Assembly: GCF_002007105.1 (NCBI RefSeq)
Contig: NZ_MVBC01000001.1
Coordinates: 372,001 to 436,000, forward strand
Direction: 5' to 3'
Length of the DNA stretch: 64,000 bases
Source of the DNA: Hymenobacter sp. CRA2
GTDB lineage: Bacteria; Bacteroidota; Bacteroidia; Cytophagales; Hymenobacteraceae
The notes under the pieces are model-generated. The model saw nothing but the letters and a program-made list of their open reading frames with translations, ran no database searches and had not been told where the DNA came from. Below, in pieces: positions 2,601 to 31,417 of the stretch (positions are counted from its first letter, which is position 1; every line of letters begins with the position of its first letter). Made by a program: the position numbers and the translations under genes.

Positions 2601-2630
2601 GGCGGGCGGCCGCGCCTGTGGCCGCCCGCC
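2601..2630. terminator. GC-rich hairpin after TonB receptor
   Basis: Perfect 11-bp stem (GGCGGGCGGCC at 2601-2611 with its complement at 2620-2630) in the 64-bp gap before the next gene. There is no T-run, so termination is inferred. Confidence 0.5.
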
Positions 2631-2646
2631 ATATGTATCTTGAGCC

Positions 2647-5256
2647 ATGAATTATCCGCAGTTATTTCTGGTGAGTGCGCGGCGACTTGGCGCAGCTATT
2701 CTACTGCTTGGCATATCAGTGGGCTTGGTTCGGGCTCAGCAACGCGACCCAAGCTTCCGGCCCAGCGAAATATTCACCACCGGGCAGATAAAATCGGCAG
2801 TGCCCGACGGCGTGGGCGGCTTATGGGTGCTCGGCAATTTTGACTACGCCGCCGGCTCACTGGTACCGGGCCTGGCGCACTACGACGCAACGGGGCAGCG
2901 CGACCCGGCTTTTCAACCACCGGCTATTCCGGCGGCTATGCAGCGCCAGCTGCGTGCGTTGCGTGCGCTGCCCAACGGCCGGGTGCTGGTGCTCGGCGAC
3001 GGAACGCTGACCATCGGTGCCGTCATTGGCTTCAATCTGATGGTGCTCGGTCCCACCGGGCAACCGGACCCGTCGTTTGCGCCGCCCGATTACTTCACCG
3101 CCCCCGGCGACCCGCTGGCCGCAACGGCCGCCGTGCAGCCCGATAGCAAGGTGCTGGTGGGCGGCAGATTTGGCCCCTACAACGGCACGGGGCCTGCGGG
3201 CTTGGTGCGCCTGCTGGCCAACGGGCAGATCGACCCCGGCTTCACACCGCCGGGCAACGGCATCAGCAACGTGCGGGCCCTGGCCGTGCAGCCCGATGGC
3301 AAAATACTGGTGGGCGGCAGTCAGCTCAGCTACAACAATACGCTTGCCCCCAGCGGCTTGCTCCGCCTGTTGCCCGATGGCTCGTTGGATACGAGCTTTA
3401 CCCCGCCGGCGGGCCTGCATGTGTGGGAATTGGTGCTGCAGCGCAGCGGGAACGTCCTGATAGGGGCGGCCGCTACCAACCAGGTTGCGGCGGGCCGCGC
3501 GGGCAGTGTGGTGCGCCTGTTACCATCCGGTGCGGCCGACGCCACCTTTGATCCGCTGAGTTACCCCGGCCGCGAGCTTGCGCTCAACGGCAATCAATAC
3601 TGGAACTACTTCGACCAGCACTTTGCCGCCCTGACCGACGGCTCGGTATTGGTTGCGTACGCTCCCTCGCTAACGGGCAATGAATCCTTGGTGCAGCATT
3701 ATACCGCTGCCGGCCAACCCGATACCACCTGGGACGCTGCTCAACCCGCCGCGGGCGGACAAATAAACTCCGTTGCGGCCCTGCCTTCGGGACTGGTGGC
3801 ATTAGGGGGCAACTTTCGCAGCTTAGCCGGTAGGGCCGGATGCTTGGTGGCCTTGCGAGGCCCAGCTGGTCGGCCCGTGGCGGCTTGGCGCTTCGGACTA
3901 GGCCTGACCGGAACGGTACGCGCCTTGGCCCGCCAAACTGATGGCCGCCTGCTCATCGGGGGCAATTTTACGGAGGTCAACGGCTGGTTTAGCCCGCAAG
4001 TAGCCCGGCTATGGCCCTCAGGCGAGGTGGACACGACTTTTCAGGCCCCGGCTGACGGGCTGGGCACCGGCGTGCTGAACACGCTGGCCCTCGACGCCAG
4101 CGGCCGGGTGTTGCTCGGAGGCCGCTTCCAGACGGTGGGCGGCCAGCCTCGTGTTGGGGTAGCCCGCCTAAGCTCCACTGGCCAATTAGACGCCGCCTTT
4201 CTGCCGCCCGCGCTCAGTGGCCTGAGCAGCGCCGCCGAGGTGCAGACTCTGGGGCTACAGCCCGATGGCGAGGTCCTGCTGGGCGGCTCGTTCGCCCTCA
4301 CTGGCCCCAGCACTACGCGCTTTCACCTGATACGCTTGCACGATACCGGTGCCCTCGATGCTGGTTTCACGGCGGCCGTGCCCAGGTCAGGGCAGGTGGG
4401 GGCGCTGCTCCTGCAGCCCACCGGCGAGGTAGTAGTAGGCGGCAACTTCTACAACAACCGTCTGGAGCTGATCCGCCGCCTGCGCGCCGATGGCACCCTG
4501 GACCCAACCTTCCAGACCGTGCTGGCCGACCCGGTAATGGGGGGCATAGTACGTGCGCTGGCGCCTACCGCGGGTGGCGGGCTGGTAGCCGCGGGGTCTT
4601 TCGTGCGCGCCAATAACCTGGTCAGCATCAATGTGGCCCGCTTTAACGCCAATGGAAGCACCGATGGCGGCTTCGTTTCGGGGCTGCCGACGCCGAGCAA
4701 TCCTATCAACCTTGGCCGCGTCAATGCCCTGGCGCTGGAGCCGACGGGGGCTGTGCTGCTCGGTGGCTCGTTGGGCAACCAGGCAGCTACCCAAGCCCCG
4801 TTTATGCAGCGGGTGCTTGCTGCCGGCCCGCTCGATGCCGCTTACTTCGGCGCGGCCACGCCCGGGCCCGACGGCGAGGTGCTGACTTTGCTGCGCCAGC
4901 CCGACGGCGTGGTGCTGGTAGGCGGTAGCTTCCTGTCAGTGGCCGGCATCTTACAACCTGCACTCATTCGGCTGCTGCCTGCTGCTAGTACTACCGCCGC
5001 CCAGTCTGCGGCTACCGTCCGCGCCGGGCTAAGCGTATGGCCCAATCCGGCCGGGGCCGCCGGGCTGCATGTGCGGCTCGACGCCGCCCGCCCGTACCGC
5101 GTACAGCTCGTGGATGCAGTGGGCCGCATCGTCCTGACGCAGCTCGTTTTTCAGGCCGAAACGACGTTGCCCACCACGGCGCTGCCGGCAGGCGTGTACC
5201 TGCTGCGCGCTGAATACGCGACCGGCCAGGCTACCCGCCGCGTAATAATTCAGTAA
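2647..5256 (+). CDS. delta-60 repeat protein with T9SS sorting domain
   Basis: Very large secreted or surface protein of unknown role. A signal peptide (LGAAILLLGISVGLVRAQQ) precedes at least ten degenerate copies of the delta-60 repeat (DUF5122): units such as LVRLLANGQIDPGFTPPG and VRALAVQPDGKILVGG recur every 50-60 residues and form a beta-propeller-like fold. The last 75 residues (LSVWPNPAGAAGLHVRL to ATRRVIIQ) match a type A T9SS C-terminal sorting domain, so the protein is predicted to cross the outer membrane through type IX secretion. Start ATG 2647 follows the hairpin closely. A TATCTTGA box lies 4 bp upstream, which would give an almost leaderless mRNA if it is a promoter. Similar architecture: the gene at 32429. 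Confidence 0.88.
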   Translation: MNYPQLFLVSARRLGAAILLLGISVGLVRAQQRDPSFRPSEIFTTGQIKSAVPDGVGGLWVLGNFDYAAGSLVPGLAHYDATGQRDPAFQPPAIPAAMQRQLRALRALPNGRVLVLGDGTLTIGAVIGFNLMVLGPTGQPDPSFAPPDYFTAPGDPLAATAAVQPDSKVLVGGRFGPYNGTGPAGLVRLLANGQIDPGFTPPGNGISNVRALAVQPDGKILVGGSQLSYNNTLAPSGLLRLLPDGSLDTSFTPPAGLHVWELVLQRSGNVLIGAAATNQVAAGRAGSVVRLLPSGAADATFDPLSYPGRELALNGNQYWNYFDQHFAALTDGSVLVAYAPSLTGNESLVQHYTAAGQPDTTWDAAQPAAGGQINSVAALPSGLVALGGNFRSLAGRAGCLVALRGPAGRPVAAWRFGLGLTGTVRALARQTDGRLLIGGNFTEVNGWFSPQVARLWPSGEVDTTFQAPADGLGTGVLNTLALDASGRVLLGGRFQTVGGQPRVGVARLSSTGQLDAAFLPPALSGLSSAAEVQTLGLQPDGEVLLGGSFALTGPSTTRFHLIRLHDTGALDAGFTAAVPRSGQVGALLLQPTGEVVVGGNFYNNRLELIRRLRADGTLDPTFQTVLADPVMGGIVRALAPTAGGGLVAAGSFVRANNLVSINVARFNANGSTDGGFVSGLPTPSNPINLGRVNALALEPTGAVLLGGSLGNQAATQAPFMQRVLAAGPLDAAYFGAATPGPDGEVLTLLRQPDGVVLVGGSFLSVAGILQPALIRLLPAASTTAAQSAATVRAGLSVWPNPAGAAGLHVRLDAARPYRVQLVDAVGRIVLTQLVFQAETTLPTTALPAGVYLLRAEYATGQATRRVIIQ

Positions 5257-5271
5257 GCTTTTCCTGCTATC

Positions 5272-6210
5272 ATGCCGCACGACCACAATCACTCCCACGC
5301 CGGCCACGACCATAGCCACGGGCACCACGGCCCGGCTGACTTAGAAAACGTCGGCCGCTCCTTCGGCTGGGGCATTGCGCTGAACCTCGTGTTTGTGGCT
5401 GCCGAAGCCGGCGGCGGCTGGTGGGCCAATTCAACGGCGCTGCTTTCTGACGCAGGCCACAACCTCTCCGACGTGCTGAGTCTGGCGTTGGCCTGGGGCG
5501 CGATGCTCATCGGCAAGCGGCCTACTTCGGCGCGCTATACCTACGGCTTCAAGGGCATCAGCATTCAGGCGGCGCTGCTGAACGCGGCCCTGCTCTACCT
5601 GGCGTTGGGCATTATCCTGTGGGAAACCATCAGCCACCTGCGCCACCCCGAGCCCGTGAACGGGCAGCTGGTGATGCTGCTGGCCGGCGCGGGCATAGTG
5701 GTCAACGGCTTCACGGCCTGGCTGTTCAGCCGCGGGCAAAAGGGCGACGTGAACGTGCGCGGCGCCTACCTGCACATGCTCACCGATGCCTTGGTGTCGG
5801 TGGGCGTGGTGGTAGGCGGGGCGCTGGTCTACTTCACTGGCTGGCTATGGCTCGATCCGGCCATCAGCTTCGTCATTCTGGCCATTGTGGGCGTCAGCTC
5901 CTGGGGGCTGTTGCGCCAAACGGTGCAGCTGAGCCTGCAGGCCGTACCCGCCGAAATCGACCCGGCCGCCGTGCGAAGCTTCCTGTTGGCTCAGCCTGGC
6001 GTCACGGACGTACACGACCTGCACATCTGGCCCCTAAGCACCCGCGACACGGCCCTCACCGCCCACCTGGTGCGCCCCAGCGGCACCGACAGCGGCTTCC
6101 TGCACGACTTGCAGCACCAGATTCAGGACGAGTTCAACATCGGCCACATCACCGTGCAGATTGAGCCCCGCGGCTGCACCCACGGCAATTGCGACGCGGA
6201 GCATCCGTAG
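5272..6210 (+). CDS. cation diffusion facilitator (CzcD/ZitB-type) exporter
   Basis: Inner-membrane antiporter that expels Zn2+ or similar divalent cations in exchange for protons. The 312-residue protein has a His-rich N-terminus (HDHNHSHAGHDHSHGHHG), six predicted membrane segments between about residues 30 and 205, and the two HxxxD metal sites of the family (DAGHNLSD near residue 64 and HMLTDALVSVG in the fifth segment). A cytoplasmic ferredoxin-like domain follows (about 215-300, DVHDLHIWPLS). The end CTHGNCDAEH adds potential metal ligands. Length and motifs are normal for the family. It begins 15 bp after the delta-60 gene and could be cotranscribed. Confidence 0.93.
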   Translation: MPHDHNHSHAGHDHSHGHHGPADLENVGRSFGWGIALNLVFVAAEAGGGWWANSTALLSDAGHNLSDVLSLALAWGAMLIGKRPTSARYTYGFKGISIQAALLNAALLYLALGIILWETISHLRHPEPVNGQLVMLLAGAGIVVNGFTAWLFSRGQKGDVNVRGAYLHMLTDALVSVGVVVGGALVYFTGWLWLDPAISFVILAIVGVSSWGLLRQTVQLSLQAVPAEIDPAAVRSFLLAQPGVTDVHDLHIWPLSTRDTALTAHLVRPSGTDSGFLHDLQHQIQDEFNIGHITVQIEPRGCTHGNCDAEHP

Positions 6211-13002: not shown

Positions 13003-13689
13003 TTACCGCACCGTGGCCGTGGTCACCTTCCCAATCTTGGGGATGATCTGAATGAGGAAGCGCTTGTTGTCGCCCTCGCGGCGGCCGGCGTAGCGCCCGG
13101 TACCGAAGAAGCCGCTACCGCCGATGATCAGCTCCACGGTGCGGTCCTGCCCGAAGCGCAGGCCGTTCTGCTGCCAGAAGTTCGAGAGGTTCAGGGCCCG
13201 GCGGTAGCTGAGCTGGTAGGTACTCTGCTCCTCGCGCTGGTTGCGCGGGTCGCCCTGCGGGTAGCGGGCTGCCATGCCTTCCACGATGACGAGGTAGCGC
13301 ACCGGCAGATCGGTGCGGATGGCGCGCAGGCGCTCCTGCAGCAGGCGGCCGGCGCGCAGCAGGGCGGGCTTGTACTGCTCCTGGATTTCGTCGCGGCCAG
13401 CCTTGAACTGCACGTCCACGCGCAGCTCGTACCGCTCGTTTTGCGGGTCGTAGCGGAAATAGTCACCCTCCAAACGCCGCAAGGACTCGCGGATGCGCTG
13501 AATCTGCTCCAGCTCCTGGGCTTTCACCTTCAGCTCGCCCAGCAGCCGGCGCTGACTGGCTTCCCGGTCGCGGAACAGCTTGAAGCTGTAGACAAACAAG
13601 ACCAGCATGACCACAAATAGGGAGGTCATCAGGTCCACGTAGCTGGGCCAGAAGAAGTCGGAGCGTTGTTGGTCGTCGGAACCGGGCAT
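13003..13689 (-). CDS. MotB/ZorB-like stator subunit with OmpA-type domain
   Basis: Predicted peptidoglycan-anchoring partner of the MotA-like channel encoded immediately upstream. The 228-residue protein has one membrane segment (residues 17-36, YVDLMTSLFVVMLVLFVYSF) containing Asp19. This sits exactly where MotB, TolR and ZorB carry the proton-binding aspartate. A short coiled coil (about 37-75) and a C-terminal OmpA-like domain follow (about 85-225: YELRVDVQFKAGRDEI, VRYLVIVEGMAARYP, YQLSYRRALNLSNFWQQNG). The domain is divergent from canonical OmpA_C. It is the last gene of the cluster; in Zorya defence loci ZorA and ZorB stand in the same order. Confidence 0.85.
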   Translation of the reverse strand: MPGSDDQQRSDFFWPSYVDLMTSLFVVMLVLFVYSFKLFRDREASQRRLLGELKVKAQELEQIQRIRESLRRLEGDYFRYDPQNERYELRVDVQFKAGRDEIQEQYKPALLRAGRLLQERLRAIRTDLPVRYLVIVEGMAARYPQGDPRNQREEQSTYQLSYRRALNLSNFWQQNGLRFGQDRTVELIIGGSGFFGTGRYAGRREGDNKRFLIQIIPKIGKVTTATVR

Positions 13690-13853: not shown

Positions 13854-15317
13854 CTACTCCTCGCGCACCCCGCCGAAGAGCTTGTCCATCCCGCGCTGCC
13901 AGCGGTTTTTGGCCGTGGCTCTGCGCAGAATCTGGTTCATCACCGACAGTTGCTCCAGCAGCTTGGTATCCACTTGCGTATCGGAGTCGATTTTGCGCAG
14001 CAATTCGCGCTGGGTGGCCGTTACGTCGCGGGCCAGTACTTCCTGGTTGACTTTCACGTCCTTGAGCGGGTCGAGCTGGCGCATGATGCGCTCGAAGGCA
14101 TTGTCCTGGTTGATGCGGTCGAAGTACTCGCCCCACTTCTCGTAGGCGCGCTGGGCGTCGCGTTCGTGGTGCTCCAGGCGGCGGCGCATCAGTTCGGTGA
14201 GGTGCTGGGAGGCTTGGTCGAAGTACTGCTCGGAGCGGGCCGCGAGGTTGCCCATCTCCACCTGGTGGCGCTGGAAGAAGTCGAGCTGCTGCTGAATGAG
14301 GTTATCGTGCTGGCCGATGTACTGGCCCAGGTTGTTGATGCCGCGCTCGAAGCCGGTGAGACGGTCGAGGATGCCACCTACTACCCTGCCCGACTCGGCG
14401 CCCTTGTCGAGCATCTGGTTGAGCTGCTGCTGGTAGGCGGTGAACTGCCCGAACAGCTCGGCCGACTCGCGCACCTTGTCGAACACGGCCAGATTGGCCT
14501 GCGCCATCTTGTCGAAGCCAACTTCCTCCAGCTTCACCAGGAAGTCGCGCTGCACCCGAATATTCTCAGTGATGGTGTTCAGGATGGGCTCAAACAGCGT
14601 CACCTTGCCCACAAAGTCCTGGTTGAACGCGTCGAGCACGCCCTTCAGGGTACTCAGGCTGGCCGACATGTCGTTGTGCAGAATGGGCAGCAGCCGGGCC
14701 TGCAGGAAGGTGAAGTATTGGTTCTGCCGCTGGTCGCGCTGCTGGCGGGCGTTACGCAGCAGGTTATTGCCGATGAGGGTGAGCAGCAGGCCCATAAACG
14801 AGCCCGTCATGGCAATGAGCACGCCGGTGAGGAAGGGCGTGAGCGAGGTGTCATCCGTTACGCCGCGGCGGGCTATGCTGACCAGACCCAGAATTACGCC
14901 CAAGAAGGTACCGAGCAAGCCCAGATACAGCGGCGTAGCCACGTTGGCCTGCACGGCATTGTCGGGCCCTTGGCCCTGGCGGGTGGCAATATCCTTGAGG
15001 ATGTTGAAATCGGCCGCGGCGCCCTTGTTGTGGCGCAGGTAGGCGTTGGTGTCCTGCACGATTTCGCGGAAGTCGGTCGAGGTATCATCCGCACGGATGA
15101 TGTCCACGGCGTAAGCATCGGCCGGGGCGTCGGCGGCGTAGTCGGGCAGGTCCACGGTGCCGTCGGGCGTGACGAGGCGGCGCTCCACGCGCAGCGTGTC
15201 CTTGGGCGGGTAGAGCTCAGCCAGCCGGGCTACCTGGGTGCGCGTCCGCAGAAACGTGAGAATCTGCAGGCCCACGATGATGGCCACCACGGCGACTTCA
15301 AGGATTATTTCAAGCAT
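13854..15317 (-). CDS. MotA/ZorA-like ion channel with long cytoplasmic tail
   Basis: Predicted inner-membrane stator subunit. The 487-residue protein has an N-terminal anchor (about residues 3-22) and a cytoplasmic loop. Two membrane helices carry the MotA/TolQ/ExbB look: about 126-147, PLYLGLLGTFLGVILGLVSI, and about 161-188, LTGVLIAMTGSFMGLLLTLI. The remaining 300 residues are helical and coiled-coil (RRLEHHERDAQRAYEKW, ATQRELLRKIDSDTQ), far longer than in MotA or TolQ. A long intracellular tail is the hallmark of ZorA in Zorya systems. Its partner follows on the same strand after a REP-containing spacer. No ZorC, ZorD or ZorE homologue is in the window. Confidence 0.85.
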   Translation of the reverse strand: MLEIILEVAVVAIIVGLQILTFLRTRTQVARLAELYPPKDTLRVERRLVTPDGTVDLPDYAADAPADAYAVDIIRADDTSTDFREIVQDTNAYLRHNKGAAADFNILKDIATRQGQGPDNAVQANVATPLYLGLLGTFLGVILGLVSIARRGVTDDTSLTPFLTGVLIAMTGSFMGLLLTLIGNNLLRNARQQRDQRQNQYFTFLQARLLPILHNDMSASLSTLKGVLDAFNQDFVGKVTLFEPILNTITENIRVQRDFLVKLEEVGFDKMAQANLAVFDKVRESAELFGQFTAYQQQLNQMLDKGAESGRVVGGILDRLTGFERGINNLGQYIGQHDNLIQQQLDFFQRHQVEMGNLAARSEQYFDQASQHLTELMRRRLEHHERDAQRAYEKWGEYFDRINQDNAFERIMRQLDPLKDVKVNQEVLARDVTATQRELLRKIDSDTQVDTKLLEQLSVMNQILRRATAKNRWQRGMDKLFGGVREE

Positions 15318-15686: not shown

Positions 15687-17174
15687 TTACTCAAACCGAA
15701 TAGCCGCCTTCTGCTCGATCTGCCACGCGCCGCCCACTTTGCGCAGCTGCCCCGGCTCGTCGGTGATGATGCGCGCGGCCGGCCCCGTCGGCGGCTGGTA
15801 GCGGCAAGCCTCGCGCAGGGAGTACTGCGCGCTTTGGATAGCATAGGCGTGCACCGCCTGGTCGGGATTGATGCGGAACGAGGCCACATCCGGCCGCTGC
15901 GGGTCGGGCGTGATTTCGTAGATGCTGTCGTGCTGGGCCACGGTGTGCAGGTCGTAGTCGGAGAAGCCCCCGTTGACGGGCACCTTCACGTAGAACTTGC
16001 CCAAGGGCACCGGCTCGGGCTGCGGCGGCGCTGCCGGTTCGGGAGCTGGCAGCTGCACCGGCGCAATGAGGCTGTCGAAGTCTTCCCGCGGCGAAGGTGT
16101 GGGCGGAGCAGCCACCGGTGCCGGACCAGCAAACGGCGGCACCTCCTCTAGCCGCTGCACTGGCGCGGGTGCCACGAGTGGCGCGGGCGTTGGGGCCAGC
16201 GGCGGAACTGGTGTCGGCGTGGCGGGCGGACTTTTGCGCAGGTTGACCGGCGGCGCGGCAGGAGCTACTGTCGGCATGGCAGGCTCGGGAGCCGCGGTGG
16301 GCCGGCCGTGCGGCTGCACATCGGCCAGGCGCTGCTGCACCAGCCGCTCCACCAGCTCTTCCACCTGCTTACGCTGGCTGAAGGTCAGGTCAGCGGGAGC
16401 TTCCTGCCCACCGCCAAAGCCCTTCATCGAGTCCAGCTCGGTGCGGTGACGGCGGTTGCTGGAGCGCAGCTCGCTGATGTGGTTGCGCAGCACCCGCCGC
16501 TCCAGCCACCAGAGCACCAGGCTCAGCAAGGACAGGATCAGGGCAATGGGGCCGAACAGCTTAGTCATGGGGCTTTCACCGGCCGATGACTGCGAAGATG
16601 CGGCGGCTGGCGCTTCGGCCTGGCCGGTGTCGGCGGCGGAGAGGCTTTCAGGCGTCTCGGTAGCCGTGGAATCGAAAGTAGCACCACCGGCGGAAGAAGC
16701 GTCTACCTGCCCGATGTCGCCGGGCACCGGGGTGCCTTGCTCCACGTAGGCCGTCAGGGCGGCCTGCAGGCGGTTTAGCTGCTCCATGCGGGCGGGGTCT
16801 TTGCGCCGCTGCGGCGAGCCGCCGAGCCGGGTAATAATCTCCTTGGCCAGCCGCTGCAGCCGCGACTGATCCGAGCCCAGGCCTTTGTACATCACGCCTT
16901 TGCCTTCCAGCGGCTGATACACCAGCGAGTACACCCGCTGGCTGTCGGGCCGGATGCTGCTTTCAAAGTCCTTGAGCGTGCCGTCGCAGCGCAGGGTATT
17001 GTTCAGGTTGGAGCGGCCGTTGTCGTTGTACACGAAGCGGGCCGTGGCGCACCAGATCTGTACCTTTTTCTCTTCCAGCGTAGCCTGGCCGGGCACGGTC
17101 TGAGCTTGGGTGGCAGCGGAAGCTGTTAGTAGCAGGCCCGTCAGCAGGGCGGTGAGGCGGCGGGGAATCCTCAT
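15687..17174 (-). CDS. membrane-anchored Pro-rich protein of the tubulin/actin cluster
   Basis: Not recognised as a named family. Visible parts of the 495 residues: signal peptide (1-24); a periplasmic domain with paired Cys (about 30-145: VQIWCATARFVYND, LRCDGTLKDFESS); an acidic Ala/Ser linker; one membrane helix (about 202-225, LFGPIALILSLLSLVLWWLE); a short coiled coil (about 226-285); a Pro/Ala-rich spacer (about 290-395); and a small cytoplasmic beta domain (about 396-495, FYVKVPVNGGFSDYDLHTV). The layout suits an adaptor spanning the inner membrane and connecting envelope to cytoplasmic partners. It stands upstream of the stator genes and downstream of the actin-like gene, so it is inferred to be part of the same system. 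Confidence 0.75.
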   Translation of the reverse strand: MRIPRRLTALLTGLLLTASAATQAQTVPGQATLEEKKVQIWCATARFVYNDNGRSNLNNTLRCDGTLKDFESSIRPDSQRVYSLVYQPLEGKGVMYKGLGSDQSRLQRLAKEIITRLGGSPQRRKDPARMEQLNRLQAALTAYVEQGTPVPGDIGQVDASSAGGATFDSTATETPESLSAADTGQAEAPAAASSQSSAGESPMTKLFGPIALILSLLSLVLWWLERRVLRNHISELRSSNRRHRTELDSMKGFGGGQEAPADLTFSQRKQVEELVERLVQQRLADVQPHGRPTAAPEPAMPTVAPAAPPVNLRKSPPATPTPVPPLAPTPAPLVAPAPVQRLEEVPPFAGPAPVAAPPTPSPREDFDSLIAPVQLPAPEPAAPPQPEPVPLGKFYVKVPVNGGFSDYDLHTVAQHDSIYEITPDPQRPDVASFRINPDQAVHAYAIQSAQYSLREACRYQPPTGPAARIITDEPGQLRKVGGAWQIEQKAAIRFE

Positions 17175-17222: not shown

Positions 17223-17831
17223 TTATTCAAAATCAAGTTTCGCTAAAGAGTAGGTGCGATTCTGAACCTGCTTATCCTGGGTCTGGAAGCAAATAGCAAC
17301 TCGCTCAGGTGACACAATGCTTGCATCACAGCGCCACCACATAGATGATATGCTTCGCATGTATTGATTGATCGGGAAGGGCGAGAGTTGCTCCAGATTG
17401 TAGCGTCTGAGCAGGTGGCCTTGACCATCGTAGACAACCATTACATCAACACCGTAGCCCATTGAAGACCAATTGTCGAACGTTACCACGTAGCGGCCGT
17501 CGTTCGATACCAATGCAGTTACCGGGGCTATTCGGTTGATCAGGCTTTCCTGCCACAGCAGTTGCGGACCGTTCGCAGTGCGCCGATACAGCATGGCATG
17601 ACACGGTACAACGGTTGTGTCCCGCGAGCTGAACCGCTTTTGGCGGTTCGGCTTTGCCTTGCGCCATTGGTAATACTTGTCAGGAACAAGTAATGGGACA
17701 ACTCGAACAAAATGGCTGCTATCCGCACTGTAATAGTCGTGCGTAGTCGGGGGCGCCCACGAATCGGCCAGCAGCAGCGTAGGCTGAACGAGCGTAAGCA
17801 ACCACAAAAAAGCGCCGGTCTTGAACTTCAT
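17223..17831 (-). CDS. secreted hypothetical protein lodged in the cluster
   Basis: A 202-residue protein with a signal peptide (MKFKTGAFLWLLTLVQPTLLLADS). The body contains a single propeller-like strand pair (VTALVSNDGRYVVTFDNW, VDVMVVYDGQGHLLRRYNL) and an unusually Trp-rich stretch (SISSMWWRCDAS). Family not recognised. Its base composition is visibly lower in GC than the genes on either side. It is separated from the actin-like gene by a spacer with a strong hairpin and looks like a later lodger rather than a core component. Confidence 0.75.
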   Translation of the reverse strand: MKFKTGAFLWLLTLVQPTLLLADSWAPPTTHDYYSADSSHFVRVVPLLVPDKYYQWRKAKPNRQKRFSSRDTTVVPCHAMLYRRTANGPQLLWQESLINRIAPVTALVSNDGRYVVTFDNWSSMGYGVDVMVVYDGQGHLLRRYNLEQLSPFPINQYMRSISSMWWRCDASIVSPERVAICFQTQDKQVQNRTYSLAKLDFE

Positions 17832-17945: not shown

Positions 17946-20900
17946 TTAGCCTTGCAGCAAATCCCGCCCGAGGTTGAACAACGACTGCTTCAGCGGCAGG
18001 AAAAACAGCGTTTCAGGCAGGGTTTCCTCCGAGCCGAGGGTGCGCTCCAGCTGGTGCAGGCCCAGGTTCAGGCTGTCCTCCACCTCGCGCTGCATGAACT
18101 CCAGCACGCGGGCCCGGTCGATGTCCACGCCGACTTCGCGCATGAGCGGGGCCACGTCATCGTTGACGAGCACCAGCTCCAGGAACTTGCGCATGTTGTC
18201 GAGCACGGCCGTGCGCATGTCGGCGTCCACGCCGCGCGGCTTCAGGCGCAGCGCCCCGATTTCCGGCCCGGCTTCGGCCCCCAGCAGGCGCACGTTCTGG
18301 ATGCTGTCCACGTCCGGCGCCGACTGGCTTTCCTCGAACAGCACGCCGCCGTTGGTGGTGGCTTCCTTGGGGTTATCGGCCAGGATGACGCGGAAATTCT
18401 GCGGCGGCTCCACGCCCGTCACGGCCTTGAGCACGGCCTTGGAAATCCGCTCGATGGCGCCCATGCTGCTGCCCCCGGCCAGCAGGCGCAGGTACAGGCT
18501 GCCCTTGCCCGAGAAGCAAAGGTAGCGCGGCAGCTTCAGGCCCAGATGCTGGGTGAGCTGCCCCACGTGGTAGATGATGCTGGTGTAGTGCAGGTAAAAC
18601 AGCACCCGCAGCTGCCGGCCCTTGCCCAGCGCCAGGCTCTGCGAGAAGCGCAGGGCGTCGTCGTAGAGGAAAAGCAGGGAAGTCACGTCGGCCGAGCCGA
18701 AGTCGTTGTTTTTCAGCGCGGCCCGCAGGTAGCCCTTGAACTCCTGGTTTTGCTCCGAGTCAGGCAGGCTTTCCACGTGGCCCACGCCGAGGCGCAGCAG
18801 GCCGTTCTGCTTGGGTGCACCCTGCACGCGGGCGTACCCGTCGCCCCACAGGTCGTTGCCGGCGAAGCGGAACGAGGAGCTGTAGGCTGGGCGCGAGTCG
18901 GCAAACACGAGCAGGTCGGTGGTACCGCCACCGATGTCGATGTTGACCACGTTTTCATCCCGGCTCGGCACCACTTGGTTCGTGGCCGTGAGGTAGTAGT
19001 ACGGCGCCACCGATTCGGTGAGGGTGAGGGTGTCGCGGCGGGTGCGGAACACCTGCTGGAAGGCCTGGTCCCACTTGTCCTTGAACTGGTTGCGCAGGAA
19101 GGCATCGAAGCTCAGCGGGGCAAACCACACCACGCGGGTGTCCTCCATGATGCCGCCGTTCAGGGCTGCTTTGTGCTTGAGCAGCAGCATCACCTCGCGG
19201 AAGAAGGCCTCAATGCGCGTCACGCCGCTCGGGTCCAGCTCGGCCGACCACTTCAGGTTGGTCACGAAGCGGTTCTGGGGCAGCTCGGCGGTGTTTTCGG
19301 TGTTGATGCTGAAGCCGATGTTGATGTTGCCCAGCACCCGTGCCGGCTCGTTGGGGAAGGTGCTCGTCTCGCACACCGCCGTGCGCACCGGGAAGGCGTA
19401 GGCCGCGCCGCCGTCGCCCACGAAGGAGGGCACGAACTCGCGGTTCTGCAGCTCGGCAATCTGCGCCCACAGCTGCTGCGCGCCCTGCCGGTAGCGCTGG
19501 TAGGGCGAGAGGCCCAGGTCGGGCAGCGGCGCGTGCAGCCAAATGACCTGCTGGTCCAGCTCGCCAATGCTGAGCGGGCGCGGGTGGCTGCTCGGGCCGT
19601 CGGAGTAGGCAATGTGGGTGTTGGTGGTGCCGAAGTCAACGGCGAAAGTGAAGCGGCGGGTGCCGCGGTCCAGCTCCTTCCAGCGCGGCACCATCAGCCC
19701 GCGGGCCGGCGGCAGGCCGGGACCGGCCGGGCACACCAGCTCGGCCACGTCGAAGTGCGTGCCGGTGACTTCGTAGTAGGTGCTGCCGGCGGTGCTGATG
19801 CTCTTGCGCGTGCGCTCGTAGCGGGTGGCGCGGCGGGCGGCGCCCTGGTCCGTTATCCGCTCCCCGCCCACGAAGAACTCCACCGCGTACTGCTTCTGCA
19901 GCTGCGCCGGGCCGTTGTCGGCGTCCACCAGCATCACCTTGTACAGGTCGTTGTACTCAGGCTGCTGGCGGAATTTGTAGAACGGGAACACGCCCAGCCC
20001 CACGTTGGCCCGCACGATGCGACCCTTCTCGGGAATCTCGCGCCCCAGCTCGTCCTTGGGGTTCTGCGGGTTGGTGTAGTAGCTGCGCTCCAGGGTGATG
20101 AAGCGCCCCTGCTGCACCGGCACCTTCAGCGACACGCGCACGTGGTTCAGGTCGATGGTGAAGTGCAGCAGCTCGGCCAAGTCGTGCTCGGTGAAGTACT
20201 CGAAGAAGGCCGGCTGCAGCGGCAGCAGGTACGGAAAGCGCGCCCGGCCCTGCGAATCGGCCCCGTACTGGAAGGTCACGCGGCCGGTGTGGTAGCGCTC
20301 CGAGTTCAGCTCGTAGGGCAGCTCCACCAAGGAGTCGGCCAGCAAATCACCCACCGTCAGGTACGGGTACTTGAAGCCTTTGCCGGGCAGTACGCGGCTG
20401 CTCATGGGCTGCTCGTCGACGTAGGGCACGGCGGTGCGGTCGTCCCAGGGCTGGCCGTTCAGGTAGTTCACGCCGCCCATAGCCAGGTTGGGGCGCAGCA
20501 CCAGCGGCTTCACCACGCCGGGTGCCAGGTCGCGGGTGGGCTGGATGAACAGGTCCGACGACACCACGGCCGTCTGGTCGGCGCGGCCGGGCAGCGGGAT
20601 GTTGCGCACGTAGGCCGGGTTGCCCTGGGCGTCGGTGAGGCCGGGGTAGCGGGTGGCAAACTGCTGGGCGTTCCGGTCGCCCGTCAGCTGCATCTGGCTG
20701 ATGCGGTTGCGGTCGAGCGTACCGAACACGCGGTGGGCAAAGTTGCGGTCCTGCAGGCGCGGGAAGGTCAAAAACAGCTCATACACGAAGTCCTGAAACT
20801 GCGGGTCGCGCTGCTCCAGGGCCACGTACTGCTGATCAAAGTAGCGGCCACCGGCGCGGGGGCGCTCCATGTCGAGCACCGGCACGGCGGGCGCGGTGAA

Positions 20901-21413
20901 GAGCATGGTCAGCGGCGAGGTGCCGCCCAGCAGGCGCGGCCCGCCCGGCAGCCCCGGCGACTCGTAGAAAATCAGGTACAGGTCGGGCGTTTCGCGGAAC
21001 CGCTCGTCCTGCCAGAACAGGCGCAGGGTTTCGCCCAGCAGGCGGGTGTTGGGGTCCTGCTGCATGCGGCCCAGCTCGGCCTCGGCGTTCCAGCGGCGCA
21101 ACGTGATGCGGCGGCCGGCCTGGGAGTAGAGGTGGTAGTTGTAGAGCAGCTCCAGCAAGTCCCAGTAGTGCGACACCAGCTCGTGGTAGACCGAATTGGG
21201 GTTGCGCGAGCCTTCCCGGGCCACGAAGTCAAACGCGGTTTCAAAGAGGTGCATCCGCGCGAAGGGCGTCGGGATGGACACCGCCAGGTTGCGCGTACGG
21301 CCGCCCGTGGGGTCGGTGATGGTATTGATTTCGGTGCTCGTGAGCGGACCGGTCTGTTGCCAGCCCTGGATTTGCTGCGAGCCGCTGTTGTGCAGGCGAA
21401 GGACTTTGGGCAT
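17946..21413 (-). CDS. giant protein with Hsp70/actin-fold ATPase domain
   Basis: An 1155-residue cytoplasmic protein. The C-terminal half is an actin/Hsp70/sugar-kinase fold ATPase. Phosphate-1 loop FAVDFGTTNTHIAYSDG has Asp593, phosphate-2 loop NIDIGGGTTDLLVF has Asp826, and an adenosine-like motif CFSGKGSLYLRLLAGG lies near residue 961. The first 580 residues are a large beta-rich region (LAELLHFTIDLNHVRVSLKV, KFRQQPEYNDLYKVMLVD) that I do not recognise. Residues after about 1000 contain a helical tail. No signal peptide or membrane helix is seen. It may be related to SrfB-type Hsp70-like proteins, but this was not tested. It lies between the tubulin-like and stator genes; a shared complex is inferred. 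Confidence 0.85.
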   Translation of the reverse strand: MPKVLRLHNSGSQQIQGWQQTGPLTSTEINTITDPTGGRTRNLAVSIPTPFARMHLFETAFDFVAREGSRNPNSVYHELVSHYWDLLELLYNYHLYSQAGRRITLRRWNAEAELGRMQQDPNTRLLGETLRLFWQDERFRETPDLYLIFYESPGLPGGPRLLGGTSPLTMLFTAPAVPVLDMERPRAGGRYFDQQYVALEQRDPQFQDFVYELFLTFPRLQDRNFAHRVFGTLDRNRISQMQLTGDRNAQQFATRYPGLTDAQGNPAYVRNIPLPGRADQTAVVSSDLFIQPTRDLAPGVVKPLVLRPNLAMGGVNYLNGQPWDDRTAVPYVDEQPMSSRVLPGKGFKYPYLTVGDLLADSLVELPYELNSERYHTGRVTFQYGADSQGRARFPYLLPLQPAFFEYFTEHDLAELLHFTIDLNHVRVSLKVPVQQGRFITLERSYYTNPQNPKDELGREIPEKGRIVRANVGLGVFPFYKFRQQPEYNDLYKVMLVDADNGPAQLQKQYAVEFFVGGERITDQGAARRATRYERTRKSISTAGSTYYEVTGTHFDVAELVCPAGPGLPPARGLMVPRWKELDRGTRRFTFAVDFGTTNTHIAYSDGPSSHPRPLSIGELDQQVIWLHAPLPDLGLSPYQRYRQGAQQLWAQIAELQNREFVPSFVGDGGAAYAFPVRTAVCETSTFPNEPARVLGNINIGFSINTENTAELPQNRFVTNLKWSAELDPSGVTRIEAFFREVMLLLKHKAALNGGIMEDTRVVWFAPLSFDAFLRNQFKDKWDQAFQQVFRTRRDTLTLTESVAPYYYLTATNQVVPSRDENVVNIDIGGGTTDLLVFADSRPAYSSSFRFAGNDLWGDGYARVQGAPKQNGLLRLGVGHVESLPDSEQNQEFKGYLRAALKNNDFGSADVTSLLFLYDDALRFSQSLALGKGRQLRVLFYLHYTSIIYHVGQLTQHLGLKLPRYLCFSGKGSLYLRLLAGGSSMGAIERISKAVLKAVTGVEPPQNFRVILADNPKEATTNGGVLFEESQSAPDVDSIQNVRLLGAEAGPEIGALRLKPRGVDADMRTAVLDNMRKFLELVLVNDDVAPLMREVGVDIDRARVLEFMQREVEDSLNLGLHQLERTLGSEETLPETLFFLPLKQSLFNLGRDLLQG

Positions 21414-21415
21414 AT

Positions 21416-21604
21416 GCGCCTCACCCCCCGGCCCCCTCTCCGAAAAGGAGAGGGAGTGTGTTCGGGAGGGATTTTGTTTTAGAGGTTACTGTTTGTTTTC
21501 AAGTGCAGTGCGCTGACGTCTCCCCGCAGCCTATCAGAACAAAATCATTGCTGACTTCAGGCTCCCCCTCTCCTTTTCGGAGAGGGGGCCGGGGGGTGAG
21601 GCGC
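21416..21604. repeat. long inverted repeat separating actin-like and tubulin-like genes
   Basis: Two 26-bp arms are perfectly complementary (21416-21441, beginning GCGCCTCACCCCCCGG, and 21579-21604). Each arm contributes to a local hairpin, CCCTCTCC/GGAGAGGG, around a GAAAA or TTTTC loop. A third related copy lies at about 32210-32240. This is a REP/BIME-type dispersed repeat. Confidence 0.8.
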
Positions 21605-23046
21605 TACACCACCTTCACCTTGTCCCGGAAGGCCTCATCCGTGACGTCATACATCAGCGTAATGAGCTTGCGGAAGTTGTCGGCGTCCTGCACCTTCTTT
21701 TCGCGGGTGTTCAGCGCGTCGAGCAGGTAGTTGCGGCTAATGCCTTTGCTGAAGAAGCCCGTTTCCACCGGCTTGCCCTGAATCATCAGGTTGAAGTCGT
21801 CGGTGGTGAGGTTGAAGGGACGGAACGAGCGGCGGTTCTGGCTCAGCTCAGTCAACCAGGCGTCCACGCCGAAGTCGGGGCTGTGCAGGAACTGCTCGAG
21901 CTGACGGAAGATGGGCTCGTTTTTCTGCGCGTACTGCAGGTTGAGGTTCTTCGCGTAGGGCGCCTCGTCGGAGCCCATGTGCTGCTTGTGGTAGCGCGAG
22001 AAGTACAGCAGCTGCGTCAGATTTTGGGCCACCTGCTCCTTGGTTTCGGTGGGCAGGTGCTGGAACTGCACGTCGGGCGTATCCGTCTCCAGGCCGAATT
22101 CGTGGAACAACGGGCCGTTGTTCGAGCGGATGTCGCCGGCCGAGTAGCTCATGAAGTCCACGATGCTCAGCGCGGCCAGCAGCTCGATGATGTGGGCCTT
22201 GTTGCGCTGCCCGGTGCCGCCCGGCTGGTTGTCGTAGGGTGTGTCGGGCGTGTCGGCCAGGTAATACAGGGCGTCGAGGCCCGGCAGGTGGTTTTCGTAG
22301 TAGCCGAGCGCGGCCTTGGTCTTCGTGAGGAAGTTGTTCGAGTCGATGACCTGGTTGTCCTCGCTCTGCAGGGCGAAGTAGGGCATCACCGTCACGGCCC
22401 CGGTCAGCGCGTCGCGCAGGTAGCGGGAGTTGCTCAGGCGGGTGTTCGGGTCCTTGAGGTTCTTGAGCAGCAGCGGGAAGCCCGAGGCGCCGGTGCCGCC
22501 GAAGATGCTGCTGATGAAGAATACCCGGTCGTCCTGCTGGAAGTTGTCGGCGAAAAAACGCATTTCCGGCGACTCCACGATGCGGTTCAAGACCACCGAG
22601 CCCACGTTGGGCGAGCCGCGGAAACCGATGGTCAGCGGGCTTTCCAGGTTGTCCTGGGTGAACAAGGCTTCCACCAGCGCCTTCGATTCCACCGGCAGGT
22701 TGTTGTAGCCCAGGTAGTCGCGGAAGCTACGGTTGATGCCGCCGAAATCGAACACGAAAGTGTCCTTCACCGAGCCGTTCACGTCCTGGCTGATGGAGGA
22801 GAGCGTGCTGATATCGGTCTTGAAGAAGCCCTCTTCGCGCGGCCCGAGGCGCTTGTGAATCTGCTGATAGGTTTGCAGCAGCTGCACGGTGCGGTTCATG
22901 TCCGCGTTCTGCGCGTCCGGGTCGATGATGATAGGCACCACCTGCTGGCAGTTGGGCAGATCCACGCCCGCGGCCAGCAGCATCGTCAGGGAGCGGACCA
23001 CCCGGGAGCCGGTGCCGCCGATGCCGAAAAGAAAGAGTTTAGCCAT
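21604..23046 (-). CDS. tubulin/FtsZ-like GTPase (Tubulin_2-type)
   Basis: A 480-residue soluble protein of the tubulin-like superfamily, expected to bind GTP and possibly form filaments. The start MAKLFLFGIGGTGSRVVRSL has the glycine loop of the Rossmann N-terminus (G8-I-G-G-T-G13). The tubulin signature appears as FISSIFGGTGASGFPLLL (G183-G-T-G-A-S188), where FtsZ has GGGTGTG. Downstream TKTKAALGYYENHLPGLDALYYL and the C-terminal half have no clear FtsZ similarity. ATG 23046 is chosen because the Rossmann strand starts there; the upstream extension is spacer. It is the key element of the cluster. Confidence 0.85.
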   Translation of the reverse strand: MAKLFLFGIGGTGSRVVRSLTMLLAAGVDLPNCQQVVPIIIDPDAQNADMNRTVQLLQTYQQIHKRLGPREEGFFKTDISTLSSISQDVNGSVKDTFVFDFGGINRSFRDYLGYNNLPVESKALVEALFTQDNLESPLTIGFRGSPNVGSVVLNRIVESPEMRFFADNFQQDDRVFFISSIFGGTGASGFPLLLKNLKDPNTRLSNSRYLRDALTGAVTVMPYFALQSEDNQVIDSNNFLTKTKAALGYYENHLPGLDALYYLADTPDTPYDNQPGGTGQRNKAHIIELLAALSIVDFMSYSAGDIRSNNGPLFHEFGLETDTPDVQFQHLPTETKEQVAQNLTQLLYFSRYHKQHMGSDEAPYAKNLNLQYAQKNEPIFRQLEQFLHSPDFGVDAWLTELSQNRRSFRPFNLTTDDFNLMIQGKPVETGFFSKGISRNYLLDALNTREKKVQDADNFRKLITLMYDVTDEAFRDKVKVV

Positions 23047-23138
23047 GTCAGGGAGAAGTGAGAAGCGAGAAGTGAGAAGTGAGAGTCGTTCACAACCGAA
23101 CCGACTTTGTCTCACCTCTCATGTCTCCATACTCAGGT

Positions 23139-23531
23139 CTAAAACGGAGTGGTGCTGGCGTTGACCGACAGCTTGCGGAACACCAGGGAGAAGAGGAAGA
23201 AGAACAGCGCCGCGTAGATGGCGTTGAGCAGCGCGAGCCAATACATATAGGAGTGCTCCACCACGTTCTGCCCCTTCACCTGCGCTATAACGATGATGAA
23301 GGCGATGATGACATTCACCAACAGCATAATCGACCAGTGGCTGGGGCGGCTGAAGGTGGCCACACGCATCCAGCGGTTGATGACTAGGTAGAAGAGCACC
23401 AGCAGCGCCAGCGTGATGCCGATGTTCAGCAGGCCGATATTGGGGAAGATGACCTCGCGGTACACCGGAACTTCGGAGGAGGGCTGCGGCGAGCCGATGA
23501 CTTCGTATAGGGCGCGAAAAAAGCCTTTCAT
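23139..23531 (-). CDS. three-helix membrane protein of the cluster
   Basis: A 130-residue protein with three strongly hydrophobic segments: about residues 32-53 (LLNIGITLALLVLFYLVINRW), about 62-85 (SIMLLVNVIIAFIIVIAQV) and about 92-120 (MYWLALLNAIYAALFFFLFSLVF). A short N-terminal soluble part precedes them. No family is recognised. It sits between the vWA-like lipoprotein and the tubulin-like gene and may anchor the cytoplasmic partner at the membrane (inference). Confidence 0.75.
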   Translation of the reverse strand: MKGFFRALYEVIGSPQPSSEVPVYREVIFPNIGLLNIGITLALLVLFYLVINRWMRVATFSRPSHWSIMLLVNVIIAFIIVIAQVKGQNVVEHSYMYWLALLNAIYAALFFFLFSLVFRKLSVNASTTPF

Positions 23532-23552: not shown

Positions 23553-23635
23553 GACATGAGAAGTGAGAAGCAGATGTTAAGCATGAGTAAGTACAGAGAA
23601 ACCTGATGGGGCTTGGTTGTCTCACTTCTCATGTC
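23553..23635. repeat. inverted repeat in spacer, shared with neighbouring spacer
   Basis: GACATGAGAAGTGAGA (23553-23568) is perfectly complementary to TCTCACTTCTCATGTC (23620-23635). The next spacer of the cluster (23047-23138) contains runs of the same GAGAAGTGAGA words and CTCACCTCTCATGTCTCC at 23110-23127. Confidence 0.75.
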
Positions 23636-23650
23636 TCTATACTCACATCT

Positions 23651-25012
23651 TCAGTCGGGTTGTACGGAAAGTGGCACGCGCAGCACATCGGCAGCATTCG
23701 TGCCAGCTTGGCGGCCCGCCAGCAGCTTCTGCAGGCCGTCGAGCTGCCGGCTGAGGGCAAAGGTTTGAGAACCAGGCCGGCTGTCGTCGGTGGTGGTCCA
23801 TTTTTCTACCCAGGTGGGGCGCGCCGCGGGCAAGGCCAGCGTCAGGTCCTGCTTGCTGCGGGGCTTGCCGGTCACGCGCACCGTTACGAAGTGCGTGTAG
23901 GCGGCTTCGGGGCCGCCGCTGCGCTTGGCTGCCTCAGTGGCGGCTTCCACTTTCACCACTTTGGCTTCGGTGGTATTGCCGCGCAGGGCCAGGTTCTTCT
24001 GCAGGTACGCCGGGGCCTGAAACAGCTCCGGCAGCTGCGCCAGGTCGAGGCCAACGACAAACTCAGCCGGCTCCTGCGCCGAAGCTTCCTCAATGGCGAC
24101 GGCGTGGCCACCCGCCCCAGCCTGCTTGCCCGCATCGGCCACAAACCAACTGCCTTTGCGCTGGAAGCGGCTGAGCACGGAATTAGGCACTTCCAGGGCC
24201 GGCAATCCAAAGTGAGCTTGCTCGCCCTGCAGGCCTTTCATCAGCGTGGCGTCGAAGCGGCCGACCAGCTCGGCCGGGCCCAGCACCCACATGTAATACG
24301 GAATGGGCTCGGCGCAGCAGTTCGGCACCTTACCCACGCGACCTTTCATGGCCGGGTAGTACGTACCCTTGAAGTCGGAGGTGAAGCCGTACACCGACAC
24401 GGCCAGGTCCTGGCGGCTGTGGGCCAGCGCATCGGCAATATCGGTGTTGATGTAGGGCACGTCGCCGGCGCGCTCGGGCGAGTAGATGAAGTCGGAGATG
24501 ATGACGCTGACCGTGCCCTCGCCGAGGTAGCGGTTGGCGACTGTATCGAGGATGGCCGGAATGCTGGTGCTTTTGGCCGGCTGGCTGATGCCGCGGCGCA
24601 CCGTTTCGCTCAGAGCCTTGTAGGAGTCGGTCAGGGGGCGGTCGGCAATGCGGAAGTAGCCGCGTTGCGCCACGCGCTGGTCGCGCTCCAGGCCCGAGAG
24701 CCACTCCGACACTTGCTGCTGAAACTGCGTGGTGCGGGCATCGGCGCCGCTGGCGGGCATGAAGCCCTGCATGGAACCGGATACCTCCAGAAATACATTG
24801 ACCCGGGGGAAGCGGGCTTCTCCGGTGCTGGGCGTAGCGGGTTTAGCAGCTGCCTTCGACGGCGCCGGTTGGGCCGGCGACTGGGTGGCCGGGGCTTCGG
24901 GAGAACTAGGTTTGTCGGACTGGCCCGCGTCTATATCGGAGCGGGAATAGCAGCCGGCCAGCAGCAGGGCAGCGGCAGGCAGCGTGTGGCGGACGAAGAA
25001 AGAAATGCGCAT
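23651..25012 (-). CDS. vWA-like domain lipoprotein
   Basis: First gene of the cluster in transcription order. The 453-residue lipoprotein begins MRISFFVRHTLPAAALLLAGC (lipid-modified Cys21), followed by a Pro/Ala-rich linker. A von Willebrand A-like domain follows, with RVNVFLEVSGSMQGF at residues 70-84 and a later TVSVIISDFIYSPERAG. The metal-ion site normally reads DxSxS; here it is E76-V-S-G-S80, so metal binding may be altered. The domain continues to about residue 220, and a C-terminal 200-residue region is of unknown fold. The lipid anchor places it on the periplasmic or outer face. ATG 25012 is preferred because it opens the lipoprotein signal. Confidence 0.82.
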   Translation of the reverse strand: MRISFFVRHTLPAAALLLAGCYSRSDIDAGQSDKPSSPEAPATQSPAQPAPSKAAAKPATPSTGEARFPRVNVFLEVSGSMQGFMPASGADARTTQFQQQVSEWLSGLERDQRVAQRGYFRIADRPLTDSYKALSETVRRGISQPAKSTSIPAILDTVANRYLGEGTVSVIISDFIYSPERAGDVPYINTDIADALAHSRQDLAVSVYGFTSDFKGTYYPAMKGRVGKVPNCCAEPIPYYMWVLGPAELVGRFDATLMKGLQGEQAHFGLPALEVPNSVLSRFQRKGSWFVADAGKQAGAGGHAVAIEEASAQEPAEFVVGLDLAQLPELFQAPAYLQKNLALRGNTTEAKVVKVEAATEAAKRSGGPEAAYTHFVTVRVTGKPRSKQDLTLALPAARPTWVEKWTTTDDSRPGSQTFALSRQLDGLQKLLAGRQAGTNAADVLRVPLSVQPD

Positions 25013-25277
25013 CGGTCCGAACATACGCACCGCCACGCGGCGGCGCAATGCAGCGTACTGGTAAGGGGCTTGTGGGGTTGCCGAATGGAACGCTCAAATC
25101 ACAGGAAAATTTTATTTCGTTGGTGAACCCCTACTGACAGAAGGCCGTTTTACTGGTCTCTACCGCGTCTTGCTTTAAGCATTTGCTTCAAAAAGTCATA
25201 AAACACCCTTTTATCTGGCAATCCGCTGTTCTGCGGCCTGCGTAAAGCAGCAGGAACGGACCCCGCCAGCCTTCGAC

Positions 25278-30652: not shown

Positions 30653-31417
30653 TTACTGTAGCCGGTTGAGGCAGAGACTGACATTGGCCCAGAGCATCCA
30701 GGCGGCGTGGCTTTCGGGTGTGTACTCGTAGTCCATGACGAGACGCCGGAAGAAGTTAAGCCATGCAAACGTACGCTCAACGACCCAACGGGGCCCCATT
30801 GGCACAACCCCCTGAGCAGTAGGGGACCGGCCAGACACCTCCTCATGGCGGAGCCCCCGCGCCCGTAAGCCTTCGGCGAAGTGGCCGCGGTAAGCGCTAT
30901 CCGTGACCATAGGGGTCAGGCGCGGCCCCCAATGCCGGCGCTCCAGGAGTAACGGGGCGGCTCCACGGCTGTCGTGCTGGTTGGCCGCGCGGCTGCGGCC
31001 AGCCCAGACCCGCCCGTCATCGACCAGCAACTGCCGCCTACGCCCGTTGATGCACTTGCCGCCGTCCGTGCCCCGGTGCTCGGCAATGCGCGGGGCGAGC
31101 TGGACGCTTTGGCTGTCCAGGCACAGCACATCGGGCGTAGTCGCCTGCCCGTGCGCTTGGCGGTCCGCCTGGTTCAGTGCTTGGTTCAAGCGCTGCAGCG
31201 TGCCGTCTTGCTGCCAGCGCCGGAAGTAGTAATACACGGCTGTCCATTTCGGAAACGCCGCCGGCAGGCACCGCCATTGGCAACCCGTGCAGCATATGTA
31301 GCGCAACGCTTCCACCACGCGCCGCAGGCACAGGCGCCGTTGGCGTTGCACCGGCAGCAGCCAGGCTATACCTTGCCACTGCGAGTCAGTAAGGGGTTGA
31401 TAGCCGCCAACCATCAT
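30653..31417 (-). CDS. IS5-family transposase
   Basis: A 254-residue DDE transposase in one frame. The N-terminal DUF4096-type domain (YQPLTDSQWQGIAWLLP, RRVVEALRYICCTGCQWRCLP) is followed by the catalytic triad Asp101 (VLCLDSQSVQ), Asp173 (MVTDSAYRG) and Glu214 (RWVVERTFAWLNFFRRL). It is complete, so the element may be active. The stop codon lies within the left inverted repeat, as in compact IS ends. Confidence 0.93.
   Translation of the reverse strand: MMVGGYQPLTDSQWQGIAWLLPVQRQRRLCLRRVVEALRYICCTGCQWRCLPAAFPKWTAVYYYFRRWQQDGTLQRLNQALNQADRQAHGQATTPDVLCLDSQSVQLAPRIAEHRGTDGGKCINGRRRQLLVDDGRVWAGRSRAANQHDSRGAAPLLLERRHWGPRLTPMVTDSAYRGHFAEGLRARGLRHEEVSGRSPTAQGVVPMGPRWVVERTFAWLNFFRRLVMDYEYTPESHAAWMLWANVSLCLNRLQ

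Follow-up and report, generated by a model that had tools for sequence, protein, structure and literature searches.

Introduction

In bacteria, the dedicated pairing of an actin-type with a tubulin-type protein is known chiefly from cell division, where FtsA and FtsZ act together. We analysed a stretch of 64,000 nucleotides from Hymenobacter sp. CRA2 (contig NZ_MVBC01000001.1, positions 372,001 to 436,000 of the forward strand; hereafter the window), in which the open reading frame (ORF) at 17946-21413 encodes a protein with the sequence hallmarks of an actin/Hsp70-superfamily ATPase. An initial annotation had described this ATPase and overlooked the larger point, that it lies within a conserved gene cluster, where its partner protein is probably tubulin-like, judging from its motifs.

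Several described systems share components with this cluster. In a membrane-remodelling system (Makarova and Koonin 2010, PMC2875224), FtsZl1 genes are grouped with genes for vWA and OmpA-type proteins, and the apparent likeness to our locus lies in a probably FtsZ-like gene grouped with such genes amid membrane proteins, as the accessible part of that paper describes them. The window-type partner differs in having 465-537 amino acids (aa) in the loci examined, compared to roughly 1000 aa for FtsZl1 with its coiled coil and helical C-terminus, and an actin-type ATPase is its constant partner here, whereas Hsp70, MreB and MotA go unmentioned in the accessible part of PMC2875224. GTPase systems that include tubulin, HSP70 and vWA components have also been reported (Kaur et al. 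2020, PMC7159879). From the accessible text, they resemble our locus in that tubulin, actin/Hsp70-type and vWA components share a neighbourhood, and differ in that the window has no TRAFAC GTPase match among ten proteins scanned, another ATPase architecture, and a bitopic linker and ion motor instead. vWA proteins that act as periplasmic force transducers with TolQ/TolQR-type motors (PMC12204202, accessible part) offer a further parallel, a vWA protein that adjoins a proton-channel motor; the window vWA-like protein differs in being lipoprotein-like without a strong membrane helix, and in being accompanied by cytoskeletal-type genes. The ZorAB motor of Zorya, according to the accessible part of PMC11890865, is likewise a MotA/MotB-type pair with a long MotA-like C-terminal region and an invariant membrane aspartate. 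The window motor is distant from it in sequence (expectation value (E) 1e-6 to 1e-11), ZorC, ZorD and ZorE were not found among ten window proteins scanned, and the motor is accompanied by tubulin-like, actin-like and vWA-like genes. Tubulin, FtsZ and vWA are unmentioned in the accessible part of PMC12505986. We found neither the ATPase nor the full cluster described in the openly licensed PubMed Central literature searched, and the accessible parts of PMC2875224, PMC7159879, PMC12204202 and PMC12505986 do not describe the ATPase.

An actin/Hsp70-type ATPase half

The ORF at 17946-21413 begins with ATG and encodes the 1155-residue protein that the initial annotation had given, on the minus strand, which that annotation left unstated; a plus-strand shadow ORF covers the same stretch. 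Profile alignment assigns residues 584-1155 (17949-19664) to the C-terminal ATPase half, which is preceded by a conserved N-terminal half of 583 residues (19665-21413). The phosphate-1 motif AVDFGTT occupies residues 591-597 (19623-19643), the phosphate-2 motif IDIGGGTTD residues 825-833 (18915-18941), and the adenosine-like motif SGKGS residues 968-972 (18498-18512). Asp593 (19635-19637, in AVDFGTTNT) and Asp826 (18936-18938, in NIDIGGGTTD) stand exactly where the initial annotation had placed them, and the adenosine-like motif it had noted forms part of FSGKGS at 967-972.

In an alignment of 13 relatives, two of them cyanobacterial, D593, G595, T596, T599, E800, D826, G828-G830, D833, G969 and G971 are invariant in all 13 sequences, and this invariance of the nucleotide-site residues is far beyond chance. 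We then built a profile from residues 584-1155 of 12 relatives and compared it by hhalign, with the reversed profile as control. Against 24 FtsA sequences, the profile reached a probability of 97.1% (E 6e-11, 174 columns) in a collinear alignment spanning phosphate-2 and the adenosine motif up to PKEATTNGGV; in global mode the score was 97.7% and D593 fell on the FtsA phosphate-1 motif. The match to MreB reached 88.6% over 33 columns and that to DnaK 36.3% over 94 columns, compared to 1.6%, 0.2% and 0.3% for the reversed profile against FtsA, MreB and DnaK, respectively. Residues 739-843 form the Hsp70-like segment of the DnaK alignment, in which VVWFAPLSF is paired to VITVPAYF, and ESVAP to NEPTA. 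The latter pairing aligns E800 with an Hsp70 glutamate that we take to be catalytic in Hsp70.

With three motifs in order and collinear with FtsA, the protein is, by its sequence, a member of the actin/Hsp70 superfamily, and the FtsA alignment together with the 13/13 conservation bears out the proposal that an ATPase with its nucleotide-binding residues kept begins near residue 584. Membership of FtsA itself was rejected, with 19.3 bits against a cut-off of 31.8 (PF14450) and 16.2 bits against 175.85 (TIGR01174). The alignments to FtsA, MreB and DnaK combined with this low FtsA score thus indicate an actin/Hsp70-superfamily ATPase which is not FtsA by score. It resembles FtsA in the order and sequence of the phosphate-1, phosphate-2 and adenosine motifs and in having a gene for a probable tubulin-type partner nearby; it differs in its additional 583-residue N-terminal half and in the spacing between the two phosphate aspartates, 233 residues compared to about 200 in the aligned FtsA.

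As a single protein the ATPase reached the cut-off of no family in Pfam or NCBIfam, and its short matches in Pfam, NCBIfam and PHROGs (FtsA, EutA, MreB and a phage partition family) all lie on phosphate-2. A profile of the 13 relatives gave weak matches to MreB, an actin-family protein, FtsA and Hsp70, all near phosphate-2. The single sequence matched nothing in PADLOC and none of the PDB sequences. The named near relatives of the ATPase are from Hymenobacter and Solirubrum.

A conserved N-terminal half

The initial annotation had found no recognisable domain in the first half, and this held in our searches: residues 1-583 gave no match above cut-off in Pfam, NCBIfam, PADLOC or PDB. Compared with FtsA, DnaK and MreB profiles they showed no match (0.05-0.65%), and the best hit among PDB profiles was not meaningful (E 0.59). 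An NCBIfam scan of the 13 relatives returned actin-type models alone, and a PADLOC scan of the same set returned one model in one member (E 0.0033). The suggestion that this half links the protein to the membrane was not supported, as the best 19-residue window of the whole protein scored 1.23 against a threshold of 1.6; membrane helices are encoded by separate neighbour genes.

Both halves have diverged to a similar degree. In the alignment of 13 relatives, which includes the cyanobacterial ones, pairs of sequences share on average 26.2% identity over residues 1-583 and 28.0% over 584-1155, and P48, P50, A60, P167, T169, R202, S286, L396, P398, F407, L429, P477 and P576 are invariant in 13/13. 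Similar identity and invariant residues indicate that the N-terminal half is as constrained as the ATPase half and is an obligatory part rather than a loose add-on. Describing the protein as a fusion was misleading, because the halves are joined in every intact relative examined, including those of another phylum; their union is ancient. The sole split copy, in G032 (locus L038), spreads the ATPase over two ORFs. We considered it as a sign of independent domains and set this aside: the tubulin-like gene of that genome is broken too, which suggests decay, damage or a sequencing error.

The low-confidence AlphaFold2 model of the N-terminal half has an alpha/beta part at about 50-275 and a beta-rich part at about 410-575. 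The matches by VIA-align were confined to residues 470-581 and pointed to immunoglobulin folds, with Z reaching 5.7. An Ig-like sandwich ahead of the ATPase is a mere hint from this model, because a Z of 5.7 is under the level that means much. None of the fold matches of this half can be trusted, and a lack of matches to other folds carries no weight.

The gene cluster and a probably tubulin-like partner

In order of transcription, the cluster encodes a vWA-like lipoprotein, a three-helix membrane protein, the tubulin-like protein, the ATPase, a 202-aa protein, a linker, a MotA/ZorA-like and a MotB/ZorB-like protein, all on the minus strand. The first four, often with the bitopic linker, form the conserved core. 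The tubulin-like protein (21604-23115, 503 aa), an FtsZ/tubulin-like sequence, carries FGIGGTGSR and SSIFGGTGASG and matches Pfam Tubulin_2 and Tubulin below cut-off; the corresponding GGTGxR and SIFGGTGxxG are invariant in 12/12. In G010, a PF00091 match (E 9.8e-4) lies just upstream of the ATPase, at the tubulin-like gene of that cluster. The window genome also encodes an FtsZ of its own (C4:145729-146211), and an actin-like ORF as long as an FtsA gene (471 aa) lies about 0.5 kb from it; the cluster thus represents a second tubulin-actin pair.

The first gene of the cluster (23651-25048; start codon uncertain) overlaps an antisense plus-strand ORF (23606-25126). Its product contains an E-x-S-x-S motif, VNVFLEVSGSMQGF, and looks like a lipoprotein from its lipobox-like LLLAGC, without a strong membrane helix. 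The motif is found as [DE]-x-S-x-S in 14 aligned vWA-like members, and the vWA-like proteins scanned had no match to Pfam vWA. A profile built from these proteins (14 sequences) detected the gene in 23/24 loci, with 11 of the matches outside the training set. The small membrane protein (23139-23531, 130 aa) has three predicted membrane helices. Downstream of the ATPase, the 202-aa protein (17223-17831) separates it from the linker and has no relative in 16 related loci, so it is probably not part of the core; its gene may have entered the operon recently. The bitopic linker (15687-17174, 495 aa) has a probable signal peptide and one strong membrane helix at residues 206-224.

The same 16 loci, one of which (L040) stops at a contig edge, contain the small membrane protein in 15, the tubulin-like gene in 15 (split in one), the MotA-like gene in 15 and the MotB-like gene in 13; the linker was detected in 10 by single-sequence search. 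Flank genes are kept in close relatives (prolyl oligopeptidase in 4/16 loci, nucleotidyltransferase in 3/16).

The last two genes encode a MotA/TolQ/ZorA-like subunit (13854-15317, 487 aa) with a long C-terminal region and a MotB/ZorB-like subunit (13003-13689, 228 aa) with a membrane aspartate, Asp19. In PADLOC they matched ZorA2 (E 2e-6) and ZorB1 (E 4.5e-11), and neither reached an NCBIfam equivalog cut-off. The MotB-like subunit carries FWPSYVDxMT, with Asp19 invariant in 16/16 sequences, and T180 of the MotA-like subunit is invariant in 17/17. Zorya defence depends critically on D24 of ZorB, which is packed against serine/threonine residues that ZorA contributes as a ring (PMC11890865, accessible part). 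The motor genes follow the core in Hymenobacteraceae, and directly follow it in the viral contigs L126 and L128, where those of L126 match ZorB1 (2e-7) and ZorA2 (6e-5). Eight of the ten loci outside the family (L036, L082, L083, L084, L125, L148-L150) keep the core order without motor genes nearby, as judged by homology search in L036 and L082-L084 (L084 reaches a contig edge) and by reading in L125 and L148-L150. Such cores in other lineages suggest that the motor is an add-on.

Occurrence across genomes and mobile elements

A protein search found the ATPase in 36 of 58 related genomes, comprising 34/36 of Hymenobacteraceae (the window genome included) and 2/22 others of the order. Two family genomes, G014 and G034, are without it, and neither has the tubulin-like gene. 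When Bacteroidota were sampled evenly, the ATPase was present in 6/296 genomes (E <= 1e-12), one copy being cut by a contig end. A first count of 242/296 genomes was dropped, and just 6 matches were long (E < 1e-50). The short ones were discarded because those listed were phosphate-2 matches of about 40-80 residues, nearly all in FtsA-looking ORFs of about 420-510 aa. The tubulin-like gene was detected in 8/296 of these genomes, and all 6 with the ATPase have both.

Three IMG/VR viral contigs carry full-length relatives as well; L126 and L128 are nearly identical, and L125 is of another kind. Further full-length relatives were found on a Prevotella replicon of 1.77 Mb and on plasmids of Picosynechococcus. 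The plasmid search with the window ATPase gave 5 records, of which 3 were examined. The same query matched nothing in a phage collection, and the N-terminal half alone found no relative among the viral contigs. The tubulin-like gene keeps its core order in L082, L083, L084, L125, L126 and L148-L150; position and appearance served to identify the small membrane protein in L125, L126 and L148-L150. Prevotella and a genome of the same order (f11) group together in the ATPase tree (90/81) and in the tubulin tree (95/95), the remaining deep branches of both being long and unsure.

The genes around these mobile copies vary. At 8965-11406 of L126, and also in L128, the motor genes are followed by genes for a DUF4357 protein and then for a nuclease of the Endonuclease_NS type (PF01223, 7e-48) whose N-terminus is hydrophobic; the mobile version may have its effector module here. 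Upstream of an L126-type cassette, L129 carries a DUF1848-like gene and a methylase/UvrD-helicase-like fusion (1803-5417), and in PADLOC the neighbours in this locus matched RTasDUF1848 (2e-39) and C3a187 (1e-31). On L125 (815-11439), a complete core cassette adjoins phage tail genes (PHROGs) and a DNA methyltransferase gene. At the end of the cyanobacterial plasmid cassettes (L148:10659-14509 and L150:10926-12989), the Bacteroidota linker is replaced by several membrane/coiled-coil proteins, of which one contains a TM2 domain.

Discussion

We give about an even chance to the explanation that the ATPase is the ATP-driven switch of a membrane-anchored multi-gene machine which organises a tubulin-like partner at the envelope. 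It is based on motifs, a profile match, conservation, gene clustering and order, co-occurrence and the motor aspartate. The C-terminal half would bind and probably hydrolyse ATP through an actin/Hsp70-type fold, nearest to FtsA by profile, and the N-terminal half may be an old obligatory adaptor that holds the tubulin-like GTPase and/or the bitopic linker. The ATP state could then control assembly of the tubulin-like partner at the inner membrane, as FtsA does for FtsZ, while its relay across the envelope would fall to the small membrane protein, the linker and, in the periplasm, the vWA-like lipoprotein. In Hymenobacteraceae, the MotAB/ZorAB-type ion motor may add or sense force, as a lineage-specific drive or sensor. 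From these observations we infer that ATP is hydrolysed, that the components touch one another, that there is recruitment to the membrane and polymerisation, and that the machine serves the cell envelope. If this explanation is true, a second actin/tubulin pair that extends from Bacteroidota to cyanobacterial plasmids would constitute a new membrane machine made from cytoskeletal parts, joined in one family, Hymenobacteraceae, to an ion-driven motor.

Several results weigh against it. AlphaFold2 gave a predicted local distance difference test (pLDDT) of 34.5 for the whole ATPase (16 sequences, the window and 15 close relatives) and of 56.3 for the N-terminal half (19 sequences), and Foldseek returned nothing at E <= 0.001 with the latter model. 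The Pfam Tubulin/Tubulin_2 matches of several tubulin-like members (E 8.5e-5 to 8e-4) always fall under the curated cut-off, and hhalign of the tubulin-like profile with 23 FtsZ sequences gave no support (0.87%; reversed profile 0.78%). An amphipathic stretch at the C-terminus of the ATPase, the possible membrane binder, ranks 33 of 1138 windows. Intergenic gaps of 16-369 bases in the window do not amount to tight packing; the cluster genes of L126 abut or overlap. Locus L037 lacks the upstream cluster genes, and in its genome, G039, about 235 kb separate the tubulin-like gene and the ATPase. Finally, two of the eight tubulin-positive Bacteroidota genomes (L146 in G337 and L147 in G238) had no detected ATPase, one match being weak.

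A Zorya-like anti-phage system, in which the motor or the vWA lipoprotein senses that phage entry disturbs the envelope and the ATPase and tubulin-like protein build a cytoplasmic assembly to carry or activate an effector, is possible though on balance unlikely. It draws on the ZorB1 and ZorA2 matches in the window and L126, the DUF4357 and Endonuclease_NS genes into which the L126/L128 cassette runs, the helicase/methylase-type neighbours in L129, the phage tail genes next to L125 and the carriage of cassettes by cyanobacterial plasmids; sporadic presence in the phylum (6/296) fits it as well, and the pairing of Prevotella with f11 in both trees is what joint transfer predicts. In contrast, presence in 34/36 family genomes, with flank genes that close relatives retain, has the look of a core function, and eight of the ten loci outside the family have no motor gene nearby. 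PADLOC gave no match worth naming for the ATPase or tubulin-like proteins, and ZorC, ZorD and ZorE were unmatched in the ten window proteins scanned and absent from the matches listed for ten related-locus proteins (for one of them, the best 25 of 32). For the window cluster we favour upkeep over defence, because the cluster is near-universal in the family and its flank genes are kept in close relatives. A mobile machine that combines tubulin-like GTPase, adaptor-bearing ATPase and ZorAB-type motor, as a Zorya relative domesticated in Hymenobacteraceae, seems to us rather unlikely; it would span the envelope to the vWA lipoprotein and be armed with a nuclease in some hosts.

The components also recall the conflict systems of Kaur et al. 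2020, which in the accessible part of PMC7159879 combine TRAFAC GTPases, tubulin homologs, HSP70 and vWA. As a variant of these, the ATPase would be a chaperone-type threshold switch and not a cytoskeletal adaptor, and residues 739-843, the Hsp70-like segment in common with DnaK, point that way. We consider this improbable, as the DnaK match is weak (36.3%) and the FtsA match better, and as a scan of ten window proteins gave no match to TRAFAC GTPase, GrpE or DnaJ. SrfB, too, belongs to the actin/Hsp70-type proteins, and the initial annotation had proposed a comparison with this group. The size of the ATPase is near that of the PF07520 model (992 positions), and one of 14 relatives matched that model, below its cut-off (E 0.074); the other 13, the window ATPase included, had no match within a limit of E 10, HMMER filters dropping most matches above 0.1. 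Membership of the SrfB group therefore appears very improbable.

Elsewhere in the window, an ORF resembling an insertion sequence (IS) transposase was recognised by eye at 30653-31417.

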